42,539 nucleotides of DNA from Cyanobium sp. NIES-981 (GTDB lineage: Bacteria; Cyanobacteriota; Cyanobacteriia; PCC-6307; Cyanobiaceae), in the NCBI GenBank assembly GCA_945901765.1, contig CAMDLO010000014.1, forward strand, positions 1 through 42,539, written 5' to 3'. Shown here in pieces: positions 7,902 through 39,983 of the stretch (the stretch's first letter is position 1; each line of letters starts with the position of its first letter). The position numbers and the translations under genes were made by a program. A model generated the notes under the pieces. It had not been told where the DNA came from and ran no database searches. It saw only the letters and a list, made by a program, of their open reading frames with translations.

Positions 7902-7925
7902 CGCCATGCCATGGATTGCCGTGCC

Positions 7926-15434: not shown

Positions 15435-15896
15435 ATGGTCGATCCCTTCAGCCTGGCTCCCCAACCCGAGACCTACTGGCACCTGTGGACCAGCGGCGAC
15501 GGCATCAGCCGCCAGCAACAGTGCACGATCAGCGCCTTTGAACTCGGGCAGCTGGGGCCCGGCGATTCGCCGCAGTTCTCCCGGCCCCTGTTTGATCAGG
15601 GCAATGCCTTCGTCACCTACCTGCCGGTGGGATGGACGGCCGACTGGCACGAAAACCACGTGCCCAAGTGGATCTACGTGCTCAGGGGCGCCTGGTCGGT
15701 GCAGAGCATGGACGGGCAGGTTGCGATCATGCGCGCCGGGGAGTACTCCTTCGGCGGTGATCAGGGTTGCATCGCCAGCCCGGAGGGCCACAAAGGTCAC
15801 CTCTCCGCCCAGGTGGGCGATGAGCCCTGCGTGCAGTTGATCATCCAGCGCAACGATGAGGCCTGGAAGCAGGCACCACCCGGATACTTCCGATGA
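15435..15896 (+). CDS. cupin-domain protein
   Basis: A 153-residue single-domain cupin. Cupin motif 1 is seen as WHENHVPKWIYVLRGAW (residues about 75-91, with two His) and motif 2 around PEGHKGHLSA. The spacing fits a small metal-binding beta barrel. Family members range from isomerases to dioxygenases, so the reaction cannot be assigned. ATG 15435 is chosen because it follows ridA closely and gives a complete barrel; the longer frame upstream overlaps ridA. The stop overlaps the next gene in ATGA fashion, so coupling to the gluconolactonase-like gene is likely. Confidence 0.85.
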   Translation: MVDPFSLAPQPETYWHLWTSGDGISRQQQCTISAFELGQLGPGDSPQFSRPLFDQGNAFVTYLPVGWTADWHENHVPKWIYVLRGAWSVQSMDGQVAIMRAGEYSFGGDQGCIASPEGHKGHLSAQVGDEPCVQLIIQRNDEAWKQAPPGYFR

Positions 15897-16873: not shown

Positions 16874-17131
16874 ATGGCCAACCCCCAGCTCGAAACCTTC
16901 CTCCAGCAGGTGAAGGGCGATCCAGCTCTGCTGCAGCGCTTCAGCGGCTGCGCCAACCTCAATGCCATCGCCGCCCTCGGCGCTGAGCATGGCTTCAGTT
17001 TCACTGGTGTGGATCTGGTGAGACACCAGGCCGAAGCCACCCTGCGGCTCAGCGACAGCGAGCTGGAGGCCGCCGCCGCCGGTGTGGAGCTGGAGGGCCA
17101 CCTCTGGCTGATGAACATCGTGTGGGGCTGA
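16874..17131 (+). CDS. Nif11-domain small protein
   Basis: An 85-residue protein beginning MANPQLETFLQQVKGDPALL, a typical Nif11 leader helix, then NLNAIAALGAEHGFSFTG and LSDSELEAAAAGVELEG, which resembles the L-x-D-E-E-L-E-x-x-A-G-G cleavage region of Nif11-type RiPP leaders. The segment after it is only about 15 residues (VELEGHLWLMNIVWG), has no Cys/Ser/Thr core, and ends in a hydrophobic-aromatic tail. It is more likely stand-alone than a lanthipeptide precursor. It lies between the gluconolactonase-like gene and the HbpS-VOC fusion with short spacing, so it is part of the same transcript. It is the second Nif11 gene in the window. Confidence 0.8.
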   Translation: MANPQLETFLQQVKGDPALLQRFSGCANLNAIAALGAEHGFSFTGVDLVRHQAEATLRLSDSELEAAAAGVELEGHLWLMNIVWG

Positions 17132-17136
17132 AGGCG

Positions 17137-18552: not shown

Positions 18553-18556
18553 AGCC

Positions 18557-19885
18557 TCAGCCCCGCTGGCTCTGCTGCATCAGCACGGCGCCCTGGTGGC
18601 CGTTCCAGCCCTCGCCACGCCAACGGGAACTGAGGGCATCGCTGACGGCGCTGACCAGCAACAGAGCCGGCAGCAACTGGAGATCGCCCTGAAGGGTGAA
18701 CACGAAGGCGGCGCAGAACAGGGGCGTGCCCTGGGTGCCGGCAAAGAGCGCCACCGCACCCACCGCCGCCAGCTGGCCGAGCTCGCTCGGTGAGAAACCG
18801 AGCCCGGCGGGCAGCAGGGAGGTCAACAAGGCGCCGAGAGTCATGCTGTTGTGCATCAAGCCTCCAGGGGCGCCGGCCGCCGGGCTGATCAGCATCGCCA
18901 GGCCGCGCCACAGCAGGGTGAGGGGAGGGCCACCGCTCTCCCCCGCCAGCGCTGCTGAGAGTGACAGGGAGCCGTCGTTGAGGCTGAGACCGCCACTGAG
19001 CTGCGCCAGGGCCGCCAGAGCCAGGGCCAAAACCACGGCTCCCGGGAGACGCTGGCGCAGCATCAGCCGCTGGACCACAGCCGCCAGTGGGATCAGCAGG
19101 CGCACCACAAGCACCCCCAGGGCGGCACCGAGAACGGTGAGCAGCGCCGCCCAACCCCACAGGGGAGCCGCCAGGGCTCCGAACTGCAGACCCACCAACC
19201 GCGCCGGCTGCCCCAGCGGCGTGCTGAGCAGGGCGCCGGAGGCAGCGGCCAGCAGCAGCGGCCCCAGCACACTCACGCCGCTGCGGCGCCCGAGCTCCTC
19301 AACGGCATAGGTGGCCGCCAGCAACGGCGAGCGGAAGGCCACACCAAGGCCGGCGGCCCCGCCGATCACGGCCACGGCCGGCAGGGGCAGGTCCGCCAGC
19401 GGCCGGAAGCGAGACCAATGCCGCCGGATCGCCAGGAGGGCGGCGGCGCCGATCGCCACTGACGGTGACTCCACCCCCACGGCCAACCCACCGATGTGGG
19501 TGAGCAGCATCAGCGGCAGCCGCTGCAGCTGGCTGCGCAGGCTGAGCTTCTCCAGCCAGCTGGCTTCAGCCGCAGCGGGCTGGGGCGGCGGCGTGCGGTC
19601 GAGGGCCAGCAGCGGCGCCACCCCTCCGCCCCGGCCGGCGGCCAGGGGCCCCCAGGCCAGCCAGAACAGCAGGGCGCTGGCGCTGAACACCAGCAGCACG
19701 GCCAGGCCAGGGGGCAGCTGACTGCCCCCGGCTGGGCCTGCCGCCCCGGCATCCAACCCTGGCAGCGGCCAGCCCCAGCGCTGCAGGCGAAACCCCAGCT
19801 CGGAGAGCGCCTGGTAGGGCCACTCCAGCAGCGCCAGCGCCAGGCCCAGCAGCAGCCAGATCAGCGCAGCAACCAGGCTGGCCAT
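18557..19885 (-). CDS. CLC-family chloride channel/antiporter-like protein
   Basis: A 442-residue protein with at least ten hydrophobic helices and the CLC pattern. A gating-glutamate motif is seen as GVESPSVAIG (E139), and the proton-glutamate region as TYAVEELGR (E196/E197). The first selectivity motif (normally GSGIP) appears as GRGGGVAPL, and the GxFxP region as APGGLMHNSMTLGA, so the anion filter is atypical. No CBS domains follow. It should lie in the inner or thylakoid membrane. ATG 19885 overlaps the glgX stop (TGATG), so the two genes are translationally coupled. It is convergent with the HbpS-VOC fusion, only four bases apart. Confidence 0.85.
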   Translation of the reverse strand: MASLVAALIWLLLGLALALLEWPYQALSELGFRLQRWGWPLPGLDAGAAGPAGGSQLPPGLAVLLVFSASALLFWLAWGPLAAGRGGGVAPLLALDRTPPPQPAAAEASWLEKLSLRSQLQRLPLMLLTHIGGLAVGVESPSVAIGAAALLAIRRHWSRFRPLADLPLPAVAVIGGAAGLGVAFRSPLLAATYAVEELGRRSGVSVLGPLLLAAASGALLSTPLGQPARLVGLQFGALAAPLWGWAALLTVLGAALGVLVVRLLIPLAAVVQRLMLRQRLPGAVVLALALAALAQLSGGLSLNDGSLSLSAALAGESGGPPLTLLWRGLAMLISPAAGAPGGLMHNSMTLGALLTSLLPAGLGFSPSELGQLAAVGAVALFAGTQGTPLFCAAFVFTLQGDLQLLPALLLVSAVSDALSSRWRGEGWNGHQGAVLMQQSQRG

Positions 19886-21993
19886 CAACGGGCCGCTCCG
19901 CTTTCGATTTCACCCTGACAGACCAGCAGCACCACCACCGAACGGGCCTGAACCTGATAGTCGCCGTCGGGGAGTGGCGGCGCCTCCTCCCAGGCGACGA
20001 TGTCGTCGGGGCTGGGTCGGGCGGTGTCGATCCAGCGGTGCCAGCAGCCATCCGCCAGGCCGGTGGGCGGCAACGTGAAGCGCAGGGGCTGCCACCAGGC
20101 ATTCACCATCACGTGCATCCGAAAGCGGTGCTCGCTGCTGGTGTAGCTGAGGGCCAGGGAGTGGGAGTCGGGGCCCCAGTCGGGCTGGAACGGCTCCACG
20201 CCGTGCCACTCCACGGCGCAGCGCCGCAGCAGCTCGGCCAGCGGCAGGCTGGTGTGATCCACCACCACATCGCGCCGCTGCCGGTAGGCGATCAGCTCGC
20301 GGGTGAAGCGCAGCAGATCGGCATGGCGCTCCACCAGGGTCCAGTCGAACCAGCTGATCGGGTTGTCCTGGCAGTAGGCGTTATTGTTGCCCTGCTGGCT
20401 GCGGCCCACCTCATCGCCCATGGCCAGCATCGGCGTGCCGGCTGCCAGCAGCAGCAGGCAGAGAGCATTGCGCTGCTGGCGGGCCCTGAGGGCGAGCACC
20501 GCCGGATCGTCGCTGGGGCCCTCCACGCCGCAGTTCCAGCTGGCGTTGTCGTCGGAACCGTCGCGGTTGGCCTCGCCATTGGCCTCGTTGTGCTTGGTGT
20601 TGAAGCTCACCCAGTCAGCCAGGGTGAAGCCGTCGTGGCAGGTGATGAAGTTCACGCTCACCTCCGCCTCCCGCCGGCGGGAGCCGTAGATGTCCGGACT
20701 GCCGATCAGGCGCTGGGCCGCCGCCCAGGCGAAGCCGCCATCGCCCTTGAGGAAGTGACGCAGGTCGTCGCGGAAGCGGCCATTCCACTCCTGCCAGCGC
20801 TCGCCCACGAAGCTGCCCACCTCGTAGAGGCCGGCCGCATCCCAGGCCTCGGCGATCAGCTTGGTGCCCGCCAGCACCGGGTCGCTGTCGAGATCGAACA
20901 GGATCGGCGGGCGAGGCTCCGGCTTGCCCTCCTCATCGCGGGAGAGCACGGCGGCCAGATCGAAGCGAAAGCCATCCACGTGCAGCTGCTCCACCCAGTG
21001 GCGCAGGCTGTGGCGAATCAACCGGCGCACCACGGGGTTGTTGGCATTGAAGGTGTTGCCGCAACCGGTCACATCCAGATCGCGCAGGCTGTCGCTCTCC
21101 CCCTCAAGCAGGTAGTAGTCGTGGGGGGCCAGTCCCCGGTACGAGAGGGTGGGCCCGGCCGCCGGCCCGGCCATCGCCCCCTCGGCCGTGTGGTTGAAGA
21201 CCACATCGAGAATCACCTCAATGCCGGCGCGGTGCAGGGCCTTGACCAGGTCGCGGAATTCATCCAGAGCCGCCAGGGGATCGGTGGCGCTGGCGTAGGC
21301 CGGATGGAGAGCCAGCACGCTGATGGGCTGATAACCCCAGTGGTTGCTGAGCCCGGCCGGTGCAGCCTGGGCATCAAAGGCGAACACCGGCAGCAGCTCC
21401 ACGGCGGTGATGCCCAGCTGCTGCAGGTAGGGGATCCGCTCGATCAGCCCGGCGTAGGTGCCGGCCCGCCCGGCGGGGAGGCCGGCGCTGGGATCGGCCG
21501 TGAAGCCGCGCACATGCAGCTCGTAGATCACCGTTTCGCGGGCGGGCCGGCGCAGGGGGCGATCCCCCTGCCAGTCGTAGCGGCCGAGGTCGGCCACCAC
21601 GCTCTTCATCGCCCCGGCCCAGCCGTCACTGCTGCCAATCCGTCCTCCCTGCCGCCGCTGGCCCTGCTGCCGGCTGTACCCCGGCGGCACCGTCACAGCG
21701 GGGGCATAGGGGTCGAGCAGCAGGCAGTCGGGATCAGCGGGCAGCCGGTAGCCGTAGAGCTGGCCGGGGCCCAGCCCAGCCACCAGCCCATGCCAGTAAG
21801 AACCGCTGCGGTGCTGTTCGCCAGCGAGGGCGATCACCGCCACCGGCTCCGGATCCTCGGGCGCGGCGAACAGGCAGAGCTCCAGGACATCGCAGGCCCG
21901 GGCGTGGATGCTGAAGTTCACCCCATCCGGCTGCAGGGTCGGGCCGAGCGGCGCGCTGCAGCCGGCGCTGAGGGCCAGGGAAGCGTCGATCAC
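19885..21993 (-). CDS. glgX: glycogen debranching enzyme (isoamylase type)
   Basis: A 702-residue GH13 enzyme that cleaves alpha-1,6 branches of glycogen. The N-terminal CBM48 starts at LGPTLQPDGVNFSIHAR. The GH13 signatures follow: DVVFNHTAEG, GFRFDLAAVLSR (nucleophile D345), LIAEAWDA (acid/base E382) and ITCHDGFTL (D454), then the GlgX-type HNEANGEANRDG insert. The GTG at 21993 is chosen: a GAGGG ribosome-binding site lies seven bases upstream and the length fits the family. The frame remains open to 22317, but that extension overlaps divergent doxX and lacks family similarity. It precedes the CLC gene with a TGATG overlap. Released maltodextrin would feed the sugar metabolism encoded around it. 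Confidence 0.95.
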   Translation of the reverse strand: MIDASLALSAGCSAPLGPTLQPDGVNFSIHARACDVLELCLFAAPEDPEPVAVIALAGEQHRSGSYWHGLVAGLGPGQLYGYRLPADPDCLLLDPYAPAVTVPPGYSRQQGQRRQGGRIGSSDGWAGAMKSVVADLGRYDWQGDRPLRRPARETVIYELHVRGFTADPSAGLPAGRAGTYAGLIERIPYLQQLGITAVELLPVFAFDAQAAPAGLSNHWGYQPISVLALHPAYASATDPLAALDEFRDLVKALHRAGIEVILDVVFNHTAEGAMAGPAAGPTLSYRGLAPHDYYLLEGESDSLRDLDVTGCGNTFNANNPVVRRLIRHSLRHWVEQLHVDGFRFDLAAVLSRDEEGKPEPRPPILFDLDSDPVLAGTKLIAEAWDAAGLYEVGSFVGERWQEWNGRFRDDLRHFLKGDGGFAWAAAQRLIGSPDIYGSRRREAEVSVNFITCHDGFTLADWVSFNTKHNEANGEANRDGSDDNASWNCGVEGPSDDPAVLALRARQQRNALCLLLLAAGTPMLAMGDEVGRSQQGNNNAYCQDNPISWFDWTLVERHADLLRFTRELIAYRQRRDVVVDHTSLPLAELLRRCAVEWHGVEPFQPDWGPDSHSLALSYTSSEHRFRMHVMVNAWWQPLRFTLPPTGLADGCWHRWIDTARPSPDDIVAWEEAPPLPDGDYQVQARSVVVLLVCQGEIESGAAR

Positions 21994-22084
21994 GGCCAGG
22001 CCCTCGCTCTGTGTAGGGTCACCCGCCAATGGTGGCCAGAGCCAGGCGCGCTGCCTACGTTGCAGACCAATGCAGGCTGGATCC

Positions 22085-22582
22085 ATGGACATCACGGTGG
22101 TGGAGCTGCTGGTGCCGGCGGCTCCCTCAACGGCGGCCCAGGCGGCCCTGCTGCTGCTGCGCCTGTTCATGGGAGTGTGCTTCATCCGCCACGGCTGGCC
22201 CAAACTGCGCAACCTCTCCACCTGGGCCCAGGCGCTGAACACGCCGAAGTGGCTGTGCTTCCTCTCGGCCTTCTCGATGTTCGCCGCGGGCATCGCCCTG
22301 CTGCCCGGGCTGCTCACGCCCCTGGCGGCCCTGGCGATCCTGGTGTCGATGGCCTACGCGATGGTGCTGGAGATCCGCTCCGGTTTTCCCTTCATCGCCC
22401 CCGACCCATATCAGATTCCCGCCGGCGACTATGCCGGCCCGATGGGGGTGGGCGAGCCGCCCAGCTGGGAGAAGGCCGCCATGTACGTGGTGATGTGCCT
22501 GGTGCTGATCGGCTGTGGCGGCGGACTGCTCTCCCTCGACAACCTGCTGATCGCCGATCTGCTGGAAACCCTGCTGGCTTGA
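22085..22582 (+). CDS. DoxX family membrane protein
   Basis: A 165-residue membrane protein of the DoxX superfamily: RLFMGVCFIRHGWPKLRN near residue 30, then a helix with ALLPGLLTPLAALAILVSM. Some members are small subunits of quinol oxidases or take part in redox homeostasis; most are uncharacterised. It has four hydrophobic helices. ATG 22085 is preferred; an ATG five codons earlier is possible. It is divergent from glgX (91 bases) and its stop overlaps the start of the lipase-like gene (TGATG). Confidence 0.85.
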   Translation: MDITVVELLVPAAPSTAAQAALLLLRLFMGVCFIRHGWPKLRNLSTWAQALNTPKWLCFLSAFSMFAAGIALLPGLLTPLAALAILVSMAYAMVLEIRSGFPFIAPDPYQIPAGDYAGPMGVGEPPSWEKAAMYVVMCLVLIGCGGGLLSLDNLLIADLLETLLA

Positions 22583-23252: not shown

Positions 23253-24902
23253 CTATCGCCCCAGGCGCGCCCGGAGGTGTTCACCCACCCGCAGAGCGTT
23301 GGCGATCGCCGTCAGCGAAGGATTCACCGCGCCGATGGTGGGCATGAAGCTGGTGTCGACAACGTAGAGGTTGTCGAGCTCGTGGGCCTTGCAGTTCAGA
23401 TCCAGCACGGAGCTGGCCGGATCGCTGCCGAAACGGCAGGTGCCGGCCTGGTGCCCCACCGCCGCAATGCTCATCGTGCTCTTGATGTAGATCTGGCGCT
23501 CCACCAGGTGGTTGCGCAGGTAGAGCTGATCCAGCATTGCCGTCAGCCGGCCGTAGAGCCGCTGGGCGGCGGTCTGGTTGTTGGGGGTGTAGCTCAGATG
23601 GATCTGCCCCTGGCCATCCACCGTCACCCGGTTGTCGGGATCCGGCAGATCTTCGGAGGAGATCCAGAAGTCGAGCGCGTGCTCGGCGATCTTGTCCATC
23701 GACCAGCCGGGCATCAGAAAGGTTTCCAGGGGCGCATAACCCTTCATGATCTGGCCGTTGGTCTTGCCGGTCATCTGGATGTTGCCCATCGGGTAGTCGA
23801 AGTCGGCGTCGCCCAGATACCAGTCGTTCACAGTGATCGTTTTCTGAAACACGGTGGTGTTCGGCTCATGGGCCAGGGCCACCATCGCCTTGCTGTTGTG
23901 GAACATGTAGTTGCGCCCCACCTGGTCAGAGCCATTGGCCAGCCCGCGCGGGTGCCGGTCGTTGGCCGACATCAGCAGCAGCCGGGCGCTGTTGGCCGCG
24001 CCGCAGCTCACCACCACCACATCGCCGCTCACCTGCAGGGTTTCGCCATCGCGCTGCAGCTCCACCGCCGTCACGCTGCGGCCGCTGGCATCGGTGAGCA
24101 GGCGGCGCACCTCGGCGCGGGTGAGCAGTGACACGTTGGCGCTGGCCAGAGCCGGCCGCATCCCCAGCACATCGGCATCACTCTTGGCGTGCACCAGGCA
24201 GGGAAAGCCATCGCAGCAATTGCACTTGCGGCAGCGGCTGAAGGGCAGGTTGGCCTCATCCAGCATCACGCCACTGGGGGCATGCGACGGGTGCAGCCCG
24301 GCGGCCCGCAGATCATCCACCAGCTTCTGAATGCGGGGCTCGTGGGCAATCGGTGGGTGGGGATAGGGGCCGCTGCAGGGGGGCTCAGTGGGATCCTCCC
24401 CGCGCAGGCCGTGCACGTGGTACATCTCCTCGGCCCGCTGATACCAGGGCTCGAAATCGCTGTAGCGCAAAGGCCAGGCCGGCGAAATGCCGTCGAAGTG
24501 CACCAGCTCCTCGAAATCCTGTTGGCGCAATCGGAAGTGGGCGGCGCCGTACATCTTGGTGGCGCCGCCCACGAAGTAATGGCTACCTGGCTGGAAAGAC
24601 TTGCCGTGCTTGTCGAACCAGGTGTCCTTCGAGACGTAACGACCCTTCTGGAACACCTCTTCGGCGTCCCAGTTCTGGGGCTCCTGAGGCAGCCAGTCGC
24701 CCCGCTCCAGTACCAGGATCTTCAGCCCCGAAGCGGCCAGACTGCGAGCCAGCGTGCCGCCGCCGGCGCCACTGCCGATGATCACCACATCGAAGTGGGC
24801 ACCATTGTCCACTTGTTGCTGCTCGGCGACGGGCAGCGGCGAGCTGTGAATGCCGGTCAACAGGTCGCGGGAGGATACAGCAGACGGTGACACCGCAGAC
24901 AT
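23253..24902 (-). CDS. GMC-family FAD oxidoreductase (catalytic His/Asn present)
   Basis: A 549-residue flavoprotein. The FAD-binding Rossmann motif is VIIGSGAGGGTLAR near residue 40, and GGATKMYGAAHFR is the family's second FAD contact. The C-terminal half has the catalytic pair: H484 in VGHQAGTCRFG and N527 in AVNPSLTAIANAL, as in pyranose 2-oxidase and gluconate-dehydrogenase-type members. A Cys-rich segment FSRCRKCNCCDGFPC (five Cys) interrupts the substrate domain, as in several bacterial GMC dehydrogenases. It probably oxidises a sugar or alcohol; the acceptor is unknown. No Tat or Sec signal is visible. It lies 55 bases downstream of the GH63-type gene on the same strand, at the end of the ARTO run. 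Confidence 0.9.
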   Translation of the reverse strand: MSAVSPSAVSSRDLLTGIHSSPLPVAEQQQVDNGAHFDVVIIGSGAGGGTLARSLAASGLKILVLERGDWLPQEPQNWDAEEVFQKGRYVSKDTWFDKHGKSFQPGSHYFVGGATKMYGAAHFRLRQQDFEELVHFDGISPAWPLRYSDFEPWYQRAEEMYHVHGLRGEDPTEPPCSGPYPHPPIAHEPRIQKLVDDLRAAGLHPSHAPSGVMLDEANLPFSRCRKCNCCDGFPCLVHAKSDADVLGMRPALASANVSLLTRAEVRRLLTDASGRSVTAVELQRDGETLQVSGDVVVVSCGAANSARLLLMSANDRHPRGLANGSDQVGRNYMFHNSKAMVALAHEPNTTVFQKTITVNDWYLGDADFDYPMGNIQMTGKTNGQIMKGYAPLETFLMPGWSMDKIAEHALDFWISSEDLPDPDNRVTVDGQGQIHLSYTPNNQTAAQRLYGRLTAMLDQLYLRNHLVERQIYIKSTMSIAAVGHQAGTCRFGSDPASSVLDLNCKAHELDNLYVVDTSFMPTIGAVNPSLTAIANALRVGEHLRARLGR

Positions 24903-24957
24903 CGGAAATCAAATGAGGGAACGGATCGTGATCGCCAGTTGATGCTCGAGGTGAACG

Positions 24958-27687
24958 TCAACCGGTGGGATAACGATGCAGCTGGTTGATCATCTTGGCC
25001 ACCACGGCACTCCAGCCGGTCTGGTGGGAGGCGCCCACACCACGGCCGTTGTCGCCATGGAAATACTCGTTGAACAGCAGAAGATCCCGCCAATGGGGAT
25101 CATTCTGGAACAGATCCACATCGCCATTGAACGCACGCCGGCCCAGGGCATCGCGGCGGAAGATGCCCACCAGCCGTTTTTGAAGCTGCAGCGAGGCATC
25201 CCAGAGATTGATCCAGTTGCCGGAACGGGTGGGAAACTCCACCTTGAAGCTGTCGCCATAAAAATGGGCAAACTTCTGCAACGACTCAATCAGCAGGAAG
25301 TTGATGGGCATCCAAACAGGCCCGCGCCAGTTTGAATTGCCACCGAACATCGCGACCGGGCTATCCGCAGGGCTGTAGCGCAGCTCCTCGCTGTCTGAGC
25401 CCGCCGTGTAGCGATAGGGATGGGCCTCATACACCTTGGAGAGGGCCCGAATGCCATAGGGCGACAGGAACTCATCCTCGTCGAACAGGCGTTGACAGAT
25501 CCGCCGCAGGCGGTCCTCGGGCACCAGGGCGAGCAACAGGCGATCGTTGTGCCAGCGCCCCATGTTGGCCTCCAGCCAGGTGGGCGAGGTGCGCTCATGA
25601 ATCAGCCAGGACCCACTCTTGAGCACATCCAACATCGGCAGGCGCTCAACGGTCTGCACATCAAAACTGGCAACGGCCAGCAGTGGAATCAAACCGGAAA
25701 CGGAGCGGGTGCGGAGATAATCGGTGCTGCCATCGGGCCGCTTGATCACGTCATAGTAAAAACCATCCTCTTCATCCCAGTTTACGTACTCACGTTGCGC
25801 CGGAACATTGAGCGCAAAAGTCAGCACCAGAAAATCGTAAACAAAACGCTCGCAGATATCGGCGTACTCAGGCTCATCACGACTAAGCTCAACAGCAATA
25901 TTAAGCAGGTTCAGACTCAGCGAAGCCATCCAGGCCGTGCCATCGCACTGGAGAATGCGACTGCCATCAGAGAGAGGAAAACGCCGATCGAATACGGCGA
26001 TGTTGTCGAGACCGAGGAAGCCCCCTTCAAAGATGTTGTCGCCCGAGCGATCGTTGCGGTTGGCCCACCAGCCGTACTCGAGGAGCAGCTTGCGCAGCGC
26101 TTCCCGCAGATAGGCGAAGTCGGCCGTGCCCTCGGCCTGCTTGCGTTCGATCTGGAAGATCCGCATCACGGCCCAGGCTCCGATTGGCGGGTTGGGGTCC
26201 GACAGGGCCCACTCGTACGCCGGTGTCTGGGCGTTGGGAGCCGTGTAATGGGGCGAGCGCAGCAGCATCGACTGCTGCTTGGCCGTGGCCGGATCGACGA
26301 TGGCAAACGACACGGCGTGGAACATCAGGTCCCACTGGCAGAAGTAGGGGTACTCCCAGGCATCCGGCATGGCGATGATGTCGTTGGCATGCAGACGACG
26401 CCACGGTGCCGTCTCCGAGTGCATGCGCTCTGGCGGTGGCGGCGGCTGGGTAGGGTCGCCATCCAGCCAGCGCACCACACTCCAGCCGTAGTACTTCTTG
26501 CACCACAGCAAGCCGGCCAGGGCACTGCTGTGGATCAGGCGATCCTCCGCCGAGAGCCCTGGGAGGCAATGCTCCATGTAGGCCTGCCACTCGAGCTCGC
26601 GGGCCGCGAACAGGGCGTTGAAGCTCTCACCGAAGGGGGTTGACGGAGACAGGTCGGCACTGGACGCGGAGCTGGCACTGGACCTGTCGGTATCGGCAGG
26701 CCGCAACCGCAACTCCACCGTCCAGGTCTCGCCCGGCTGGAGCGTGTGCTGCACCAGCGCAGCCGCTTTGGTGCCCTCGGCCGTGGGATTGATGGCGCCC
26801 TGCTCGCCATCGATCACGTAGCGATGAAAGCCATCCTTCTGGAAAGGCGTCGCATTGGGTTGGCCGTAGAGACGCTCGCTGTTGGTCTCGTTGTCGGTGA
26901 ACAGCCACTGGGCGGAGCCGTTGAGCAGCAGCTCATAGGAAGCGAGGTCGGAGAGGGTAGGCGTGATCAACCGATCACCGTGCAGCCGCAGCGGTTGCCG
27001 GGATTGACCGGGATAGCCCCAACTCCAGGTGTTGCGCAGCCAGAGGGTGGGAAGCAGGCTGAGGGGCGCCGCATCCGGACCACGATTGATCGCCCGGATG
27101 CGGATCAGCAGATCGGTGGCGGATGCCTTCGCGTATTCAATGAACACATCGAAGTAACGGCTTTCGTTGAAGATGCCCGTATCCACCAGCTCGTATTCCG
27201 GCTGGTCCCGGTCGCGGCGAGCGTTCTCCTCCACCAGCTGGGCATAGGGAAAGCGCGCCTGGGGATATTTGTAGAGCCCCCGCATGAAGCTGTGGGTAGG
27301 GGTGTTGGCGATATGAAAGTAGTAATCCTTAAGATCTTCGCCGTGGTTGCCCTCCGGGTTGCCCAGGCCGAAGGGCCGCTCCTTGAGGATCGGATCCTGG
27401 CCGTTCCACAGGGCCACGGAAAAACAGAGTCGGCACTGCTCATCGCAGATGCCGAGCAGGCCGTCTTCTCCCCAGCGGTACACCCGCGAGCGGGCGTGAT
27501 CGTGGGGAAAGGAACGCCAGGCATCGCCGTCAGCGGAGTAGTCCTCGCGAACGGTGCCCCACTGGCGGTCGGGCAGATAGCTGCCCCACAGACTCCACTG
27601 GGCGAGGCCGTTGTCGCGCTCGGCCATGCGCCGCGCCTCTGAACTCAGCTGGGCAGGGCCACTGGGTTCGAACGGGTCGATGGTCAT
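24958..27687 (-). CDS. GH63-type (MGH1-like) glucosidase
   Basis: A 909-residue protein with an N-terminal beta-sandwich region and a C-terminal (alpha/alpha)6 barrel. The family's conserved blocks are RSRVYRWGEDGLLGICDE, CQWDLMFHAVSFA (probable acid Asp), NSNWRGPVWMPINFLL and LFNEYFHGDNGRGVGASHQTG in pieces (probable base Glu). GH63 bacterial members act on alpha-glucosides such as mannosyl- or glucosylglycerate, so a compatible solute is a reasonable but unproven substrate. No signal peptide is visible. ATG 27687 overlaps the upstream GMC stop (ATGA). The interval about 25700-25990 has clearly lower GC (about 45-48% in sampled lines) than its surroundings. Confidence 0.88.
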   Translation of the reverse strand: MTIDPFEPSGPAQLSSEARRMAERDNGLAQWSLWGSYLPDRQWGTVREDYSADGDAWRSFPHDHARSRVYRWGEDGLLGICDEQCRLCFSVALWNGQDPILKERPFGLGNPEGNHGEDLKDYYFHIANTPTHSFMRGLYKYPQARFPYAQLVEENARRDRDQPEYELVDTGIFNESRYFDVFIEYAKASATDLLIRIRAINRGPDAAPLSLLPTLWLRNTWSWGYPGQSRQPLRLHGDRLITPTLSDLASYELLLNGSAQWLFTDNETNSERLYGQPNATPFQKDGFHRYVIDGEQGAINPTAEGTKAAALVQHTLQPGETWTVELRLRPADTDRSSASSASSADLSPSTPFGESFNALFAARELEWQAYMEHCLPGLSAEDRLIHSSALAGLLWCKKYYGWSVVRWLDGDPTQPPPPPERMHSETAPWRRLHANDIIAMPDAWEYPYFCQWDLMFHAVSFAIVDPATAKQQSMLLRSPHYTAPNAQTPAYEWALSDPNPPIGAWAVMRIFQIERKQAEGTADFAYLREALRKLLLEYGWWANRNDRSGDNIFEGGFLGLDNIAVFDRRFPLSDGSRILQCDGTAWMASLSLNLLNIAVELSRDEPEYADICERFVYDFLVLTFALNVPAQREYVNWDEEDGFYYDVIKRPDGSTDYLRTRSVSGLIPLLAVASFDVQTVERLPMLDVLKSGSWLIHERTSPTWLEANMGRWHNDRLLLALVPEDRLRRICQRLFDEDEFLSPYGIRALSKVYEAHPYRYTAGSDSEELRYSPADSPVAMFGGNSNWRGPVWMPINFLLIESLQKFAHFYGDSFKVEFPTRSGNWINLWDASLQLQKRLVGIFRRDALGRRAFNGDVDLFQNDPHWRDLLLFNEYFHGDNGRGVGASHQTGWSAVVAKMINQLHRYPTG

Positions 27688-29201
27688 TGCAAAGCGGCGC
27701 GCACACCGGCCGCGATCCGCAGGGCGTTGGCGATCACCGTGAGCCCGAAGCCCATCATCGGACAGGCGGGGAACACGCTGGCATCGGCGATGGTGAGGTT
27801 GGTGAGTTCATGGCTGCGGCCCTGCAGGTCCACCACCGAGGTGGCAGGGTTCTCACCCATGCGGCAGGTGCCGCAGGCGTAACCGATGGCGGAGAGCGGC
27901 GCCTCCCCCCGCGGATGGGTGGGGGCGCTGCGCACCACGTGGGTGAGCGGATCGGCCTCCACCGCCTTGAGGGTATCGATCCAGCGATAGACAAGCCGGT
28001 CGTGGGCTTCGAAGTTGTTCACCCGGTAGTTCACCTGGATCTGGTCGTTGCGGAGGCTGATGCGGTTGTGGGGATCGGGGAGCACCGGGCTCATCGCCCA
28101 CCAGGTGACCGAGCGGGAGGCCAGCTGCTCGAGACCGAAATCAGGCAGGAGTTTGGTCACCAGCGACAGCACCGGCGGCGATTCAGCAAAGAGCGCGTCC
28201 TGAAGCACGCCACCACCGTTCTGGATGGAGCCCAGCGGGAACGAGACGTTGCTGTCCCCCCAGAGGAAATCATTCACGCCAAAGCTGCGGGAATAACAGC
28301 CATCGTTCGGAACGGTGGCGAGCTGCAGGATCGAGGTGAGCTGCAGCTTCATCAGGTTGCGGCCCACCTGGTCAGACCCGTTGGCCAGACCGCGGGGGTG
28401 GTGATCGGTGGCCGAGCGCAGCAGGATCGCCGGGGTGTTGATCGCCCCAGCCGCCAGCACCACCTGATGGGCGCTGAACAGCCAGCTCTGTCCATCGATC
28501 AGGGCCTCAACGCCGCGCACCTCGCTGCCAGAAGGATTCACGTGCAGGCGCTGCACGGCGGCGCCGCTGCGCACCATCACCTCGCGGCAGCGGCGTGCCG
28601 GTTCCACACCGAACAGTTCGGCATCGCCCGTGGGATCACTGCTGGACTCGGACCAGCTCAGGGGCAGGCGATAGGGGTGAACGCCGTGACGCTGGAGGTC
28701 TTCGGCCAGGGCGTTGAGGAACGGTTCGGCCTGCCTGGGTTCATGGGCGTAGGCCACGGCCGCGGAGGGCTCGGTGGGATCCTGACCCCGCGCCCCATGC
28801 ACCCGGTAGAGGGCTTCAGCCTGGTCATACCAGGGCTCCATCTCGGCGTAGCTGAGTCCCCAGGCGGGAGCCTGGCGCTCCTGGAGCATCAGGCCGTCGA
28901 ACTCCCGCTCGCGCATGCGTTCGAGCACCCCTCCCCAGATCTTGGTGTTGCCCCCGAGGGCATAAATCGTCTGGGGGGCGAAGGGATCGCCATCGGTGCC
29001 GAACCAGCGCTCATTCGGGTGATAGCGGTCCTTGCGGAACAGCTCCACCCCAGCCAGGTTCTGATCGGCCAGGGGCATGCCGGCGCCACGCTCCAGCAGC
29101 AGCACGGCGTGGCCGGCCTCGGCCAGAACAGCAGCGACAGTGCCACCGGCAGCACCGCTGCCGATGATGATGACGTCGTAGTGACGGTCGTCGATGATCA
29201 T
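27684..29201 (-). CDS. GMC-family FAD oxidoreductase lacking the usual catalytic pair
   Basis: A 505-residue GMC flavoprotein, paralogous to the one at 23253. The FAD motif is VIIIGSGAAGGTVAA (about residues 10-24), then GGNTKIWGGVLERM. At the C-terminus the family block is IGYACGTCRMGEN, where the first catalytic His is Tyr, and CPMMGFGLTVIANALR, where the second His/Asn (in N-P-x-x-T) is missing. FAD binding looks intact, so it may be an electron-transfer partner, use other residues, or be inactive. ATG 29201 is preferred; the longer frame to 29243 overlaps ctaE. It follows ctaE by ten bases and overlaps the GH63-type gene (ATGA), so it is firmly inside the oxidase operon. Confidence 0.9.
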   Translation of the reverse strand: MIIDDRHYDVIIIGSGAAGGTVAAVLAEAGHAVLLLERGAGMPLADQNLAGVELFRKDRYHPNERWFGTDGDPFAPQTIYALGGNTKIWGGVLERMREREFDGLMLQERQAPAWGLSYAEMEPWYDQAEALYRVHGARGQDPTEPSAAVAYAHEPRQAEPFLNALAEDLQRHGVHPYRLPLSWSESSSDPTGDAELFGVEPARRCREVMVRSGAAVQRLHVNPSGSEVRGVEALIDGQSWLFSAHQVVLAAGAINTPAILLRSATDHHPRGLANGSDQVGRNLMKLQLTSILQLATVPNDGCYSRSFGVNDFLWGDSNVSFPLGSIQNGGGVLQDALFAESPPVLSLVTKLLPDFGLEQLASRSVTWWAMSPVLPDPHNRISLRNDQIQVNYRVNNFEAHDRLVYRWIDTLKAVEADPLTHVVRSAPTHPRGEAPLSAIGYACGTCRMGENPATSVVDLQGRSHELTNLTIADASVFPACPMMGFGLTVIANALRIAAGVRAALQ

Positions 29202-29211
29202 CTGATGGTCC

Positions 29212-29820
29212 TCAATGACGTTGCCAGACGTAAATGAGCACAAACAGGATGATCCAGATCACATCCACGAAGTGCCAGAACAGAGAGGTGGCCTGGACTC
29301 CCTGCTCACCTTTGGCGTAGTTACCAGGAAGGAACGACTTGATCAGCATCAGAGCCATGAGCAGCACGCCGGTCGCCACATGCAGGCCGTGGAAACCGGT
29401 AAGCAAGTAAAAGGTGCCACCGAAGGTGCCTGAGGTGAAGCCGAACGCAAGCTCGCTCCACTCCACGGCCTGGCCATAGAGGAAATAGCCCCCCAAGGCC
29501 ATGGTGAGAAGCCAGAGGGCCCGGAAGCCCCAGAGGTTGCCTCGAGCCATGAAGGTCTCCGCCAGCCAGATCGTGCCGGAACTCGAGACCAGAACGATCG
29601 TGTTGATCAGCGGCATGCGCCATTCCAGACCCTCCACGCCGGCGGGCAGCCAGTTGAGGGCCGAGGTCTTCAAGACGGCATAGCCACTGAAGAACGCCAG
29701 AAAGATGACACTCTCTGAACACAGAAAAATGATGAAGCCGGTGAGGCTGTGGTTGGCGTGGCCCTCACCACCCTCTCCATGGGGAGTGATCGAACCGGTG
29801 GGGGGAATGGCGGTGGTCAT
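29212..29820 (-). CDS. ctaE: cytochrome oxidase subunit III (ARTO type)
   Basis: A 202-residue membrane protein of the COX3 family with about five helices. Conserved elements are LTGFIIFLCSESVIFLAFFS, FGGTFYLLTGFHGLHVATG (the subunit III signature) and the C-terminal SLFWHFVDVIWIILF. Subunit III stabilises the catalytic subunit and the proton uptake path. ATG 29820 overlaps the ctaD stop (ATGA). Its close coupling to the CuA-less CtaC makes it part of the alternative oxidase, not the aa3 enzyme. Confidence 0.95.
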   Translation of the reverse strand: MTTAIPPTGSITPHGEGGEGHANHSLTGFIIFLCSESVIFLAFFSGYAVLKTSALNWLPAGVEGLEWRMPLINTIVLVSSSGTIWLAETFMARGNLWGFRALWLLTMALGGYFLYGQAVEWSELAFGFTSGTFGGTFYLLTGFHGLHVATGVLLMALMLIKSFLPGNYAKGEQGVQATSLFWHFVDVIWIILFVLIYVWQRH

Positions 29821-31490
29821 GGCGTGGCCTCCTGCAGGGTGAGTTCGCGTTCAATCGCCGCCTGGTTTTCCACCAGCGGTTGGCCCAGGCCATAGCCGTA
29901 GGGGCGTGCAATCACGGTGGGCACATGCTCACCGAAGTTGTCCTCGGCGGGCGGGGAGGGCAAGAGCCACTCCAGGCCGATGGCATTCCAGGGATTGTGG
30001 GTCGCCTTGGGGCCCCGCACCCAGGAGCTCACCATGTTGAGAAGGAAAGGAATGATCGATACCCCCAAAAGAAAGGCCCCGAGGCTGGCAAGCACGTTCC
30101 AGAAGGCGAATTCCGGGTCATAGGATGAAACCCGCCTCGGCATGCCCATCAAGCCGGCAGGGTGCATGGGGAGAAAGTTCAGGTTTGCGCCAACAAAAGT
30201 GAGCAAGAAATGGACCTTACCCAAGCCCTCATAGGGCATCCGACCGGTGAACTTGGGGAACCAGTGATAGATAGCCGCGAACACACCCATCACCGCTGCT
30301 CCATAAATTACGTAGTGAAAGTGACCAACAACAAAATAAGTATTGCTGACATGAATATCGACTGGAACAGTAGCCAGCATGATACCCGTGATGCCTGCAA
30401 AAACGAAATTGAACAACCCACCCAGGCAGAACAACATCGGAGTGGTGAGGCGCAGTTTGCCGCGCCAGAGAGTTCCCAGCCAAGCGAACACCTTTACCCC
30501 GGTGGGTACGGCGATCAACATGGTCGTAACCATGAACAGATTGCGCATCCACTGAGCCACTCCACTAGGAAACATGTGGTGCACCCAGACAATCAACCCG
30601 AGCCCGACAATGATGAATGAGGCGAGCGCTACATAGACATATCCGAAGAGCGGCTTACGCGCGTAAACAGGGAAGAGTTCAGAGAACACTCCGAACACCG
30701 GCAGAATGATCACATAGACGGCCGGGTGGGAGTAGAACCAGAAAAAATGCTGATACAGCACTGGATCTCCACCTCCCTCAGGACGATAGAAAGAGGTCCC
30801 AGCAATCAGATCGAACAACAGCATCACCGCTCCGCCAGTGAGAGCAGGCAGCCCGATCAACTGCAGGGATTGGGCCGCCAGCGCCGTCCAGCAGAACACC
30901 GGCATGCGGAACCAGGTCATGCCCGGCGCACGCATGCGGATGATCGTGGTCACGAAATTGACTGCTCCCATAATTGACGACACCCCTGAAAGAGCAACCG
31001 CCGTAATCCAGAGACCCTGGCCGCTCAGCAGATTGCCGAGGGGATTTTGGAGACTGACCGGCGGGTAGGACCACCAACCGGAATAGGCCGGTCCTCCGGG
31101 CACGAAGAAACTGGCGATCAGCAGGGTGCCGAAGATAGGCACCAACCAGAAGGCCACGGCATTCAACCGCGGGAAGGCCATATCCGGTGCGCCGATCATC
31201 GTCGGGATCAAGAGGTTATTAAGACCGTTGAGAACCGGAAAGATGAACAGAAACAGCATGATCGTTCCGTGCATCGTGTAGATGCCGTTATAGACCGTGC
31301 GATCCACCAAATCAGCAGCGGGCGTGATCAGCTCACCGCGAATGATCATGGCGAGAAGGCCACCGATCAAAAAATAGAAGAAGGACAGCACGATGTACTG
31401 AATGCCGATCACCTTGGCGTCGGTGTTGAAGCTGAAATAGCGGGTCCAGGATGGCTTGGGCTCGCTGGAGGGGAACGTGGCGGAGGTCAT
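29817..31490 (-). CDS. ctaD: heme-copper oxidase subunit I (A2-type, ARTO)
   Basis: A 557-residue catalytic subunit with twelve or so helices. Metal ligands are intact: H74 and H392 for the low-spin heme, H390 for the high-spin heme, H255, H304 and H305 for CuB, and Y259 for the His-Tyr crosslink. The motif around CuB is FYSHPAVY: the A1-type Glu of GHPEVY is absent, and the YS pair marks the A2 type. Reduction of O2 to water and proton pumping are expected. With CuA-less CtaC the donor should be a quinol. Lower-GC stretches lie inside the gene (30301-30360 is about 33% G+C). It starts 12 bases after the ctaC stop. Confidence 0.96.
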   Translation of the reverse strand: MTSATFPSSEPKPSWTRYFSFNTDAKVIGIQYIVLSFFYFLIGGLLAMIIRGELITPAADLVDRTVYNGIYTMHGTIMLFLFIFPVLNGLNNLLIPTMIGAPDMAFPRLNAVAFWLVPIFGTLLIASFFVPGGPAYSGWWSYPPVSLQNPLGNLLSGQGLWITAVALSGVSSIMGAVNFVTTIIRMRAPGMTWFRMPVFCWTALAAQSLQLIGLPALTGGAVMLLFDLIAGTSFYRPEGGGDPVLYQHFFWFYSHPAVYVIILPVFGVFSELFPVYARKPLFGYVYVALASFIIVGLGLIVWVHHMFPSGVAQWMRNLFMVTTMLIAVPTGVKVFAWLGTLWRGKLRLTTPMLFCLGGLFNFVFAGITGIMLATVPVDIHVSNTYFVVGHFHYVIYGAAVMGVFAAIYHWFPKFTGRMPYEGLGKVHFLLTFVGANLNFLPMHPAGLMGMPRRVSSYDPEFAFWNVLASLGAFLLGVSIIPFLLNMVSSWVRGPKATHNPWNAIGLEWLLPSPPAEDNFGEHVPTVIARPYGYGLGQPLVENQAAIERELTLQEATP

Positions 31491-31502
31491 CGGGAAGCAA
31501 GA

Positions 31503-32438
31503 TCAGGCATCGTGGGGCAGGGTGTTGGAGCCAGGAACATTCACCTGCGGGGGGGGGGCCGGAGGCACGGTGGCCCAGCCGGGATTGCTCTTGCGGTCCC
31601 GTACGGCGTACTCCTGCACGGCATCGCTGATGCCGCTCTGGAGAGGCTGAGCGGCAGCCTGCTTCAGCCAGGCGGCGTGGGCATCGCCAGCCTCCACCAC
31701 CACATCGGCCTGGTTGGCCGCAAACCAGGTGCCGCTGAACTGGGAATCGCGCAGGCGGTAACGCCCCTCCCTTGTGGGGGTGAGATTGAAGTCGATCGCC
31801 GTGCCAGGAACCACATCCTGCTTAAGGCGAAACGCCGGAATGTAAAAGCCGTGTATCACATCATCAGATACCAGCCTGAAAGTGACTGGCTGGTCAATCG
31901 CTAGGTGCAGTTCAGTAGAGGAAACGCCCGCTGCGGGATAGCGGAACTCCCAAGACCATTGACGGGCAATCACCTCCACAGTTTCCGGAGGTAACCGGTC
32001 GCCAGGATAACCACCAACCTCCTCCACCGCATTGCCTGGATGGATGTGCTCCATGGGCCCCAGCACACCAAGACGGGTGTTGACCTGGATGGCGTAAACC
32101 GCAATCCCCATCACCAACACCAGTGGAATGGCCGTCCAGATCACCTCAAGCTTGGTGTTGCCCTCGATTGGCTCGGCATCGGATGCGTCATATTTCTCGG
32201 CTCGGTGCATCAGCACCACCCAGATCATCACCGAGATCACACCGAGAAAGACAAAGGTGCCCACCCCCGTTTCAAAGCTGAACAGGCCATCCACAAGGGG
32301 CGCGGCAGTGGAGGCCTGAACGGGCAGCCAGTGGTAAGCCTGACGGCTCATCCACACGCTCACAAGCACCAGCAACCCCACCCAGAGGGCCAGCCCCAGC
32401 AGGGGCAGGGGACGCAGGCGCGGGGTGGAACTGGTCAT
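31503..32438 (-). CDS. ctaC: oxidase subunit II without CuA site (ARTO)
   Basis: A 311-residue subunit II with three hydrophobic N-terminal helices and a periplasmic/lumenal cupredoxin domain (ARQWSWEFRYP, residues 158-168; VIHGFYIPAFRLKQDVVPG). The CuA loop, normally C-x-E-x-C-x3-H-x2-M, is RDSQFSGTWFAANQ (residues 230-243). Both Cys, the Glu, the loop His and the Met are gone; only H196 of the upstream motif remains. This is the hallmark of cyanobacterial ARTO, believed to use quinol rather than cytochrome c. The coding strand has a run of ten C (31549-31558) in the Pro-rich tail. ATG 32438 overlaps the stop of the upstream DUF2231 gene (ATGA). Confidence 0.93.
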   Translation of the reverse strand: MTSSTPRLRPLPLLGLALWVGLLVLVSVWMSRQAYHWLPVQASTAAPLVDGLFSFETGVGTFVFLGVISVMIWVVLMHRAEKYDASDAEPIEGNTKLEVIWTAIPLVLVMGIAVYAIQVNTRLGVLGPMEHIHPGNAVEEVGGYPGDRLPPETVEVIARQWSWEFRYPAAGVSSTELHLAIDQPVTFRLVSDDVIHGFYIPAFRLKQDVVPGTAIDFNLTPTREGRYRLRDSQFSGTWFAANQADVVVEAGDAHAAWLKQAAAQPLQSGISDAVQEYAVRDRKSNPGWATVPPAPPPQVNVPGSNTLPHDA

Positions 32439-33055
32439 GGCAGAGCCTCCTTGAGGTCGGCACCGGCGGCCAGAAGCTGGTCGGCGGTGATGTGCACACC
32501 GAATTCGGCGGCGAGCTCGGCACCAAGCGTGCCGTGCAGACCGATCACCAGAAACAGAACCAGACCCGCCAACAGGTAGAGCCACTGCACCTGACGGCCC
32601 ATGTCCCTGCGCCAGACGAAGCGCTGGAAGCCACGCCATACCGTCATCGCCACGATCACCAGCAGGATCAGCACACCACCGACGCCATGGATCAACATGG
32701 TGTCCATGCTCTGCAGGCCGATGCTGCTGGTGACACCGGGCAGGGGCTCGGCCAGCAGCAGCTCATAGAAGCCTGCCGCCACAGTGAAGAAGCTCACGAT
32801 GGAGCAGGCGAGCAGGTTGTACCAACCGACATCGTGAAAGCCGGCACGGGTCACCGGCAGTGCGAGGAAGCGAAATACCCGCTTCTCCACCGGATAGAGC
32901 GCTCCGGCGATGTCAAAGGCGATGGCGATCACGAACAGACCGATCGTGAGATGCACCAGATTGGGGTGGATCGGCAACGCATAGGGAAGACCATTGGGTC
33001 CGAGCTGGGAGGCCAGCTGCTCGATCGGCGGCTGAGGAGAGATGTAGATGGCCAT
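32435..33055 (-). CDS. DUF2231-family membrane protein
   Basis: A 206-residue protein with four hydrophobic helices and the DUF2231 opening motif HPNLVHLTIGLF (H30, H35). Two further His sit in helices, H123 in MLIHGVGG and H174 in IGLHGTLGA. Four such helical His could bind heme, by analogy with b-type cytochromes; no biochemistry is implied by the sequence alone. Members often sit beside ctaC in cyanobacteria and other bacteria. ATG 33055 overlaps the stop of the upstream paralogue (TGATG), and its own stop overlaps ctaC (ATGA). A role in electron entry to, or assembly of, the oxidase is inferred. Confidence 0.85.
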   Translation of the reverse strand: MAIYISPQPPIEQLASQLGPNGLPYALPIHPNLVHLTIGLFVIAIAFDIAGALYPVEKRVFRFLALPVTRAGFHDVGWYNLLACSIVSFFTVAAGFYELLLAEPLPGVTSSIGLQSMDTMLIHGVGGVLILLVIVAMTVWRGFQRFVWRRDMGRQVQWLYLLAGLVLFLVIGLHGTLGAELAAEFGVHITADQLLAAGADLKEALP

Positions 33056-33552
33056 CACACCAACCCATCACGCATCGCCTGAACCACTGGCACGGTATGG
33101 AGGCCGTAGGTCCAGATCAACTGATTGCCGAGGGTGACCTGCACCACGATCAGAGCACTGAGCGCAGCCCCGGCACCCAGAAAGCCAAGGGGGATCTGCT
33201 GCGGATCACGGCTGCGGATCACGTAGCGCCAGCCGGACATCAAGGACAACACACCGGCCAGCGACCAGCCGATCGTGCTGTGCAGATTCAGGATCTCGCT
33301 GGAGGCTCCATAAGGGTTGGCCAAGCCTGCCTCCACCTGACCGAAGATGATCGCCACAAAAATCGCCGCGGTGGCAAACAGCAAATTCCAGAAACTCACC
33401 TCAAACAAGCGAGTTCGGCGAAACAGAACACCGATCAGATCAAAGACGAAGCTGATCAGCCCCATCGCGATCACAAAATGCACCACAATCGGATGAATGG
33501 TATCCATCCAGGGAAGATTGTGATCATTGAGAGCGGGCAACAGCTCGAGCAT
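33055..33552 (-). CDS. DUF2231-family membrane protein, first gene of the ARTO run
   Basis: A 165-residue protein with four hydrophobic helices and the same HPIVVHFVIAM motif (H20, H25) as its neighbour, plus H91 in LNLHSTIGW and H152 in TYGLHTVPV. It is shorter and clearly a paralogue of the next gene. ATG 33552 is preferred because it gives a short soluble N-terminus before the motif; the frame upstream to 33636 is GC-rich filler. It starts the minus-strand run that continues through ctaCDE to the GMC genes. The 171 bases upstream, shared with the divergent hdeD-like gene, are noticeably AT-richer and should hold both promoters. Confidence 0.85.
   Translation of the reverse strand: MLELLPALNDHNLPWMDTIHPIVVHFVIAMGLISFVFDLIGVLFRRTRLFEVSFWNLLFATAAIFVAIIFGQVEAGLANPYGASSEILNLHSTIGWSLAGVLSLMSGWRYVIRSRDPQQIPLGFLGAGAALSALIVVQVTLGNQLIWTYGLHTVPVVQAMRDGLV

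Positions 33553-36144: not shown

Positions 36145-39983
<3,839 letters not shown>

Follow-up and report, generated by a model that had tools for sequence, protein, structure and literature searches.

A predicted ARTO operon with a GMC flavoprotein and an adjoining GH63-GMC cassette in Cyanobium sp. NIES-981

What donates electrons to the alternative respiratory terminal oxidase (ARTO) of cyanobacteria in the living cell, and what the enzyme is for, is still debated. The roles proposed in the accessible parts of two publications are those of an electron sink, of a part of a minimal chain in the cytoplasmic membrane, and of ferric reduction (PMC10119275, PMC7676907). The closest described gene set is the operon alr2729-alr2730-coxB3-coxA3-coxC3 for the type-1 ARTO (Qox, Cox3) of Anabaena (PMC6616624, partial text). 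Among flavoproteins of the GMC family, the mycofactocin dehydrogenase MftG is described, in the accessible part of its report, as passing electrons towards the respiratory chain (PMC11778925), and it may serve as a precedent for a GMC protein feeding such a chain.

Here, we analyzed a stretch of 42,539 nucleotides of Cyanobium sp. NIES-981 (contig CAMDLO010000014.1; the window is this whole stretch), in which the genes of an ARTO are followed by those of a GMC flavoprotein (GMC1), a glycoside hydrolase resembling family GH63, and a second GMC protein (GMC2). The locus consists of two modules, a core DUF2231-DUF2231-ctaCDE-GMC1 and a separate GH63-GMC2 cassette. Our preferred reading, to which we give a probability of roughly 0.5, is that a sugar is oxidized by GMC2 and the electrons go to quinone and ARTO, with GMC1 as a partner of ARTO.

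Two modules and their conservation

Translated open reading frames (ORFs) and the DNA itself place eight genes in series on the minus strand, from 33552 to 23253, in the order DUF2231, DUF2231, ctaC, ctaD, ctaE, GMC1, GH63-like, and GMC2, and for each of the eight the Pfam assignment agrees with the named family. This bears out the gene series given by a first-pass annotation made from the sequence alone. The seven junctions measure −1, −4, 12, −4, 10, −4, and 55 bases in gene order, which also confirms its count of five junctions that overlap or lie within ten bases and two of 12 and 55 bases. The 55 bases that precede GMC2 contain no terminator-like site according to a consensus scan; over the region, the scan gave 13 sites compared to a mean of 6.8 in shuffled sequences, and scans of this kind say little. 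The eight genes may be transcribed as a single unit.

Conservation was followed in three sets of regions: 79 from Cyanobiaceae (L033-L111), of which 60 came from GH63 matches and 19 from GMC1 matches mostly without GH63; 40 GH63 regions of other cyanobacteria, picked by hand among the matches of the phylum; and 20 ARTO loci outside the Cyanobiaceae, picked from ctaD matches of higher identity, with genome G563 contributing two. As the sets were hand-chosen, shares within them are not unbiased rates. Among the genomes searched, GH63 matches, paralogues included, occurred in 102 of 399 of the order and in 75 of 386 of the phylum.

GMC1 goes with ARTO. Of the 399 genomes of the order, 156 gave a GMC1 match at E values up to 1e-60, and 152 gave an ARTO-grade ctaD match at E values up to 1e-250. 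Comparing the two match lists by eye gave 150 genomes with both, 6 with GMC1 only, 2 with ctaD only, and 241 with neither (Fisher P ~1e-99, uncorrected for relatedness). Gene order shows the same link: ARTO ctaD is present in 52 of the 79 Cyanobiaceae regions, and in 50 of these GMC1 lies at most 300 bases after ctaE. The two exceptions are L092, where the region ends after ctaE, and L110, where two clusters confused the pairing rule. The ctaE-GMC1 order is present also in the small genomes of genus g2. Outside the Cyanobiaceae, a GMC gene follows ctaE on the same strand in 15 of the 20 ARTO loci, among them L236, where it lies 2.7 kb off; in the other five loci it is convergent (L250) or missing (L246, L248, L251), or ctaD stands alone (L249).

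The cassette follows this core less regularly. Of the 79 regions, 48 have a GH63 orthologue; it comes after GMC1 in 31, and reading L110 by eye brings this to 32. Of the 48, 41 have GMC2 after GH63, and 30 have ARTO at a distance of at most 6 kb. In three regions the ARTO operon starts 4–5 kb beyond GH63-GMC2 (L072, L089, L092), and in seven genomes GMC1 is found 13.7–18.2 kb beyond it on the same strand (L067-L070, L086-L088). The first-pass annotation had set conserved gene order in relatives beforehand as a refutation test, and the order was found to be conserved across Cyanobiaceae genera, which indicates that the gene series is more than chance. Its picture of one joined ARTO, GMC, and GH63 system was kept as far as this order goes and revised in that the core occurs also without GH63 and the GH63-GMC2 pair is a cassette of its own.

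The best sign of a shared function is that SDR (short-chain dehydrogenase/reductase), GH63, ARTO, and GMC2 genes are grouped again in another order elsewhere. In L250, from another cyanobacterial family, one strand carries VOC, SDR, GH63, DUF2231, DUF2231, ctaC, ctaD, and ctaE, with a convergent GMC2 and a gene of the SMP-30/gluconolactonase-like (SGL) family beyond it. L149, of the same genus and thus counted with L250 as one event, holds SDR, GH63, the five ARTO genes, and a convergent GMC2. The cassette may also be mobile between genomes, as the record of L189 is named a plasmid.

Two single loci are recorded here. On one strand of L189 (Pseudanabaena biceps plasmid unnamed3, 2939-12631), the gene order is MIP, SDR, VOC, GMC2-type, GH63. 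L110 (G150:C63:26001-46000; 652-8244 and 16552-20000) holds a DUFa-DUFb-ctaE-GMC1-GH63-GMC2 cluster, where ctaC and ctaD gave no match in the stretch from DUFb to ctaE, and a second copy GMC1-ctaE-ctaD about 8 kb from it.

Oxidase, GMC proteins, and glycosidase

Neither a Cys nor a CuA motif is present in the protein encoded by ctaC. The positive control, a second oxidase in this genome (contig C1, located by a COX1 search), shows CAELCGPYHGGM in the adjacent frame. The loss of Cys and of the CuA motif fits a quinol-type ARTO, in line with the earlier assignment, and the enzyme is predicted to be a type-1 ARTO with quinol oxidase activity. In ctaD, YSHPAVY was found in 55 of 55 rows and the HH and HFH motifs are retained with small variation, all of which we take to be the motifs of a haem-copper subunit I; the relatives of ctaD in the PDB are haem-copper oxidase subunits I.

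Both DUF2231 proteins have conserved histidines. H20, H25, H91, and H152 are shared by all 81 homologues aligned with DUF2231a, and H30, H35, and H123 by all 82 aligned with DUF2231b (H174 in 79, H188 in 81). These pooled row counts, like those given below for GMC1, including its 59 Cyanobiaceae rows, and for ARTO-associated GMCs, hold some duplicates; very probable duplicate records are L152, L155-L159, L163, and L215, which equal G283, G140, G040, G217, G274, G046, G374, and G010. Putative bis-His haem binding is a reasonable guess for both proteins. A PDB profile search with DUF2231b gave no match up to E 1, and no DUF2231 match was found in the genome beyond the pair of the window.

The two GMC proteins share 37% identity and differ in the residues of the active site. 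Aligned to FAD-glucose dehydrogenase (FAD-GDH) and fructose dehydrogenase (FDH), GMC1 has Tyr441 in place of the catalytic His and Gly484 in place of the Asn. In the 59 Cyanobiaceae rows, the His column has Tyr in 31 rows, Gly in 6, His in 5, Ser, Phe, and Leu in 4 each, Ile, Val, and Gln in 1 each, and a gap in 2; the Asn column has Gly in 53, Ser in 3, and a gap in 3. In 15 ARTO-associated GMCs of other families, the His column has Asn in 10, His in 4, and Tyr in 1, and the Asn column Ser in 12, Pro in 2, and Gly in 1. The Asn is thereby lost in all non-gap ARTO-GMC rows and the His in most. GMC1 is probably no ordinary sugar dehydrogenase, as it lacks this canonical pair. Also, more than 30 positions are kept in at least 93% of the ARTO-GMC rows and differ from the GMC2-type class, among them H61, Q77, N85, D335, E340, W367, E398, H400, D401, Y405, and W407, and the dinucleotide-binding residues G14, G16, G19, and E37 are likewise kept in at least 93% of rows. 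GMC1 therefore looks like a protein conserved for another job than canonical GMC catalysis, and we infer that it is an electron-transfer partner of ARTO and not a sugar dehydrogenase.

GMC2 is of the canonical kind. Its residues 37-545 align with FAD-GDH (E 2.9e-37) and residues 37-541 with the large subunit of FDH. H484 and N527 are found in 46 of 46 non-gap rows (49 rows, 3 with a gap), as are C224, C227, and C235, with C230 in 45 of the 46. The stretch with these four cysteines coincides with the CC....C stretch of FAD-GDH at a different spacing, and it is a possible iron-sulfur (Fe-S) site. The Cys cluster is absent from the GMC1 class, in which a single Cys stands at the C235 position in three rows, and the motif was seen in 0 of the 15 ARTO-following GMCs of other families. 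By these features GMC2 is likely the sugar oxidase of the window and kin of FAD-GDH and FDH with the catalytic His and Asn. The earlier proposal that a glycosidase frees a sugar and a GMC protein oxidizes it is upheld as far as a canonical sugar-dehydrogenase-like GMC2 adjoins the glycosidase and a quinone route is plausible; it does not hold for GMC1, which lacks His and Asn, and the two GMC proteins have to be told apart.

A tree of 66 GMC rows, made with a quick method without bootstrap and rooted at the midpoint only, places the GH63-associated GMCs in one clade (32 rows, SH-aLRT 100, including three rows from other phyla) and the 34 ARTO-associated GMCs on the opposite side. According to this split, GMC1 and GMC2 would thus be old paralogues out of two different neighbourhoods. 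The GMC proteins that follow ARTO outside the Cyanobiaceae had higher BLAST identity to the GMC2-type query and were considered as GMC2-type; motifs and tree place them with the ARTO type.

For the GH63-like protein, PF22422 scored 61.6 bits (cut-off 27) and PF03200 34.6 bits (cut-off 22.4). The single sequence gave no PDB match up to E 0.001; a profile of 37 rows matched the yeast-type glucosidase I 4j5t (E 4.6e-9) and, weakly, TTHA0978 of Thermus (E 0.049). All 37 rows have D453 and E874, by analogy presumed to be the catalytic acid pair; in 4j5t, the Glu within CYENY is aligned to E874. The protein is predicted to hydrolyse an alpha-glucoside. None of 13 regions with GH63 paralogues (L073-L085; 44-50% identity to the GH63 of the window) contained GMC2-type or ARTO genes at a distance of up to 6 kb; SDR and debranching-enzyme genes were each present in one. 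In three further regions, a second GH63 gene of 47-52% identity directly follows GMC2 to give GH63-GMC2-GH63 (L061, 10601-13267; L064, 10613-12868; L065, 10558-13236). A 3.7-kb contig labelled Chthoniobacterales (L162) carries a GH63 with 62% identity to the cyanobacterial protein; a binning error may be the cause.

Neighbouring genes, proposed electron route, and competing readings

Genes that could be related to sugar metabolism were counted within 6 kb of GH63. The 40 regions of other cyanobacteria contained SDR in 13, an MIP channel in 8, a GMC2-type gene in 6, a debranching enzyme in 4, and ARTO in 2, compared to no SDR, MIP, debranching, or SGL gene in 19 control regions anchored on ARTO. 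In 67 named GH63 loci outside the Cyanobiaceae, for which there was no control set, the numbers were SDR 14, debranching enzyme 7, GMC2-type 6, and SGL 1, and 21 of the 67 had at least one of SDR, debranching enzyme, and GMC2-type. In the 48 Cyanobiaceae orthologue regions, SDR was found within this distance in 21 and SGL in 11, or in 16 if SGL anywhere in the region is counted. The SDRs of L090, L138, L250, and the window all score above the cut-off of NCBIfam NF005559 (glucose 1-dehydrogenase), which is a broad subfamily model. The window itself carries SDR, SGL, HbpS/glyoxalase, NDH-2-like, and isoamylase-like genes at 11.8–22.4 kb (Table 1).

Table 1. Features of the analyzed window of Cyanobium sp. 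NIES-981
Feature	Position	Strand	Evidence
DUF2231a membrane protein, first operon gene, 165 aa	33055..33552	-	Pfam PF09990 E 9.5e-36
DUF2231b membrane protein, 206 aa	32435..33055	-	Pfam PF09990 E 2.9e-38
ctaC, predicted ARTO subunit II, without CuA	31503..32438	-	Pfam COX2_TM, COX2
ctaD, predicted ARTO subunit I, haem-copper oxidase	29817..31490	-	Pfam COX1 E 2.8e-152
ctaE, predicted ARTO subunit III	29212..29820	-	Pfam COX3
GMC1, ARTO-associated GMC flavoprotein, 505 aa	27684..29201	-	Pfam GMC_oxred_N/C
GH63-like (MGH1-like) glycoside hydrolase, 909 aa	24958..27687	-	Pfam PF22422, PF03200 above cut-offs
GMC2, GMC dehydrogenase, 549 aa, H484, N527, and Cys motif	23253..24902	-	Alignment to FAD-GDH / FDH
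CX2CX2CX4C motif of GMC2 (C224, C227, C230, C235), possible Fe-S site	24198..24233	-	Conserved columns
Type II NADH dehydrogenase-like flavoprotein, satellite	11860..13296	+	Pfam PF07992 E 4e-45; NDH2_C 23.3 bits, below cut-off 27.7
SDR, glucose 1-dehydrogenase subfamily, satellite	14015..14821	-	NCBIfam NF005559 232 bits, cut-off 215
SMP-30/gluconolactonase-like (SGL) protein, satellite	15893..16840	+	Pfam PF08450 E 4.2e-42; 87.6% identity to SGL of L090
HbpS-like + glyoxalase-like (VOC) protein, satellite	17122..18552	+	Pfam PF03928, PF00903
Isoamylase/glycogen-debranching-like GH13, next large minus-strand gene downstream, start codon uncertain	19885..22317	-	Pfam Alpha-amylase, CBM_48, ISOA1-3_C

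In the window, a single ORF carries both the HbpS-like and the glyoxalase-like domain, which in L090 belong to two adjacent genes. Upstream of the ARTO operon, the minus strand carries genes for a gamma-glutamyltranspeptidase and an oxoprolinase/hydantoinase-type protein with a 4-base overlap (34255-39983), which possibly serve glutathione breakdown; the gamma-glutamyltranspeptidase gene is a frequent neighbour of the relatives' loci too.

As to the source of the sugar, the first-pass annotation had suggested a glucosylated compatible solute, and this is retained as one candidate only. GgpS/OtsA-type synthases (PF00982) gave no match in the genome, a search that covered this family and not glucosylglycerate, sucrose, or other synthases; this speaks against glucosylglycerol and OtsA-made trehalose, which were rejected as substrates. 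Together with the glucose-1-dehydrogenase-like SDR and debranching genes beside GH63 in relatives, it makes an alpha-glucan source at least as likely as a glucosylated solute. Glucosylglycerate may still be a substrate of the GH63-like enzyme; according to the available part of PMC11631117, it is a major compatible solute of a Prochlorococcus strain.

In the preferred reading, the GH63-like enzyme, which is probably cytosolic, would free glucose from an alpha-glucoside such as a glycogen-derived oligosaccharide or a glucosylated solute. The freed glucose would be oxidized to a lactone by GMC2, acting as a dehydrogenase with FAD and perhaps an Fe-S centre, and the nearby gluconolactonase-like protein may open the lactone. 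Electrons would enter the plastoquinone pool either directly or via GMC1 and the DUF2231 proteins, and ARTO would pass them on to oxygen. Such a route from sugar to ARTO would bypass hexokinase, NADPH, and cytochrome c.

Several observations weigh against this route. GH63-GMC2 and GMC1 are on different contigs in four genomes (L051, L053-L055), and many ARTO-GMC1 operons sit in genomes without a GH63 match; neither module therefore needs the other. Of the 40 other cyanobacterial regions none, and of the 67 named loci one, had an SGL gene at most 6 kb from GH63, and due to this rarity the gluconolactonase link rests on the Cyanobiaceae and L250. The thermoresistant-type gluconokinase TIGR01313 had no match in the 94%-complete genome (other kinase families were not tested) and a glucokinase is present, which leaves gluconate without an evident next step and glucose with one. 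FDH and FAD-GDH have a small subunit and a cytochrome c partner; neither was found among the eight operon genes, to which this search was confined. Structure predictions were unusable both for GMC1 (9 rows, mean pLDDT 34.8) and for DUF2231b (10 rows, mean pLDDT 51.4).

The points on glucokinase and gluconokinase favour another reading, in which the operon is a salvage unit for alpha-glucans or solutes whose glucose goes to glucokinase, GMC2 acts on another alcohol or aldose, and the link to ARTO reflects shared regulation in the dark or under iron or redox stress, with no electrons shared. It would also account for GH63 genes next to a debranching enzyme in several phyla and for GH63-GMC2 pairs away from ARTO in several genera. 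However, GMC2 after GH63 and ARTO within 6 kb in the Cyanobiaceae orthologue regions (41 and 30 of 48) argue against it, and the glucose-1-dehydrogenase-like SDR genes beside GH63 would rather fit oxidation of the freed sugar. We consider salvage less likely than the preferred reading.

A further reading concerns GMC1, which might be a structural or assembly factor of ARTO with a GMC fold, carrying out no catalysis and transferring no electrons. The loss of the Asn from every non-gap row and of the His from most, and the near-perfect co-occurrence with ctaD, are what a scaffold would show, but the conserved G14, G16, G19, and E37 and the more than 30 ARTO-GMC-specific residues suggest a specific active function, and we regard this role as rather improbable. 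Somewhat more speculative is a different reading, in which ARTO is a larger complex than an oxidase of three subunits. GMC1 and the two DUF2231 proteins, whose four or five conserved His possibly bind b-type haem, would then form a flavin-to-haem unit taking electrons from dedicated dehydrogenases, GMC2 in the window, to ARTO or to ferric iron; if true, such a unit would account for the weakened ferric reduction in ARTO mutants.

The most doubtful alternative is iron acquisition, with ARTO, GMC1, and DUF2231 reducing ferric iron on electrons from the sugar cassette: lowered ferric reduction and uptake in a Synechocystis ARTO mutant and enrichment of ARTO in low-iron Prochlorococcus, both from the accessible parts of PMC10119275 and PMC7676907, and the four or five conserved His of each DUF2231 protein would fit it, but there is no iron gene among the eight operon genes, the DUF2231 haem is putative, and DUF2231b has neither PDB kin up to E 1 nor a usable model.

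Comparison with described systems

The preferred reading, a sugar-fed ARTO with GMC1 as partner, would be of interest for several reasons. GMC1, a near-constant companion of ARTO in the searched Cyanobiaceae, would be a direct candidate for the missing partner of this oxidase, and the GH63-GMC2 cassette would name a candidate fuel for it. If right, picocyanobacteria would have a route from sugar to oxygen that is independent of NAD(P)H. We found no literature joining ARTO with a GMC or GH63 protein, most subscription papers lying outside the coverage of the search.

The GH63-like protein resembles characterized GH63 enzymes, namely glucosidase I (4j5t), Thermus TTHA0978 (2z07/4wva), and the mycobacterial glucosylglycerate hydrolase (PMC6608630), in its C-terminal catalytic motifs and conserved acids; it differs in belonging to a bacterial subfamily of about 900 aa, in which no characterized member was found. 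GMC2 is similar to FAD-GDH (6a2u, 8grj) and to the FDH large subunit (7w2j) along residues 37-545, with His and Asn kept and Cys in the same place, whereas the Cys spacing differs and the operon of the window lacks the small and cytochrome subunits.

The Anabaena ARTO operon has the layout of the core in the window, two small ORFs being followed by three oxidase genes in the same order; the likeness is one of layout. A subunit II without CuA is common to the type-1 ARTO of Anabaena, as far as its available description goes, and the window. The accessible text on the Anabaena operon lists no GMC gene and has 0 occurrences of "GMC" (PMC6616624), and GMC1, GH63, and GMC2 are what the window adds. 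The view of the first-pass annotation that no such gene set was described in cyanobacteria thus has to be narrowed: the five-gene ARTO operon is known, and it is the GMC/GH63 part alone for which the search turned up no description. To MftG, both GMC proteins of the window have weak similarity (68.7 and 68.6 bits, below the TIGR03970 cut-off of 387), and unlike MftG, as presented in the available part of its report, GMC1 is tied to a cyanobacterial oxidase operon.

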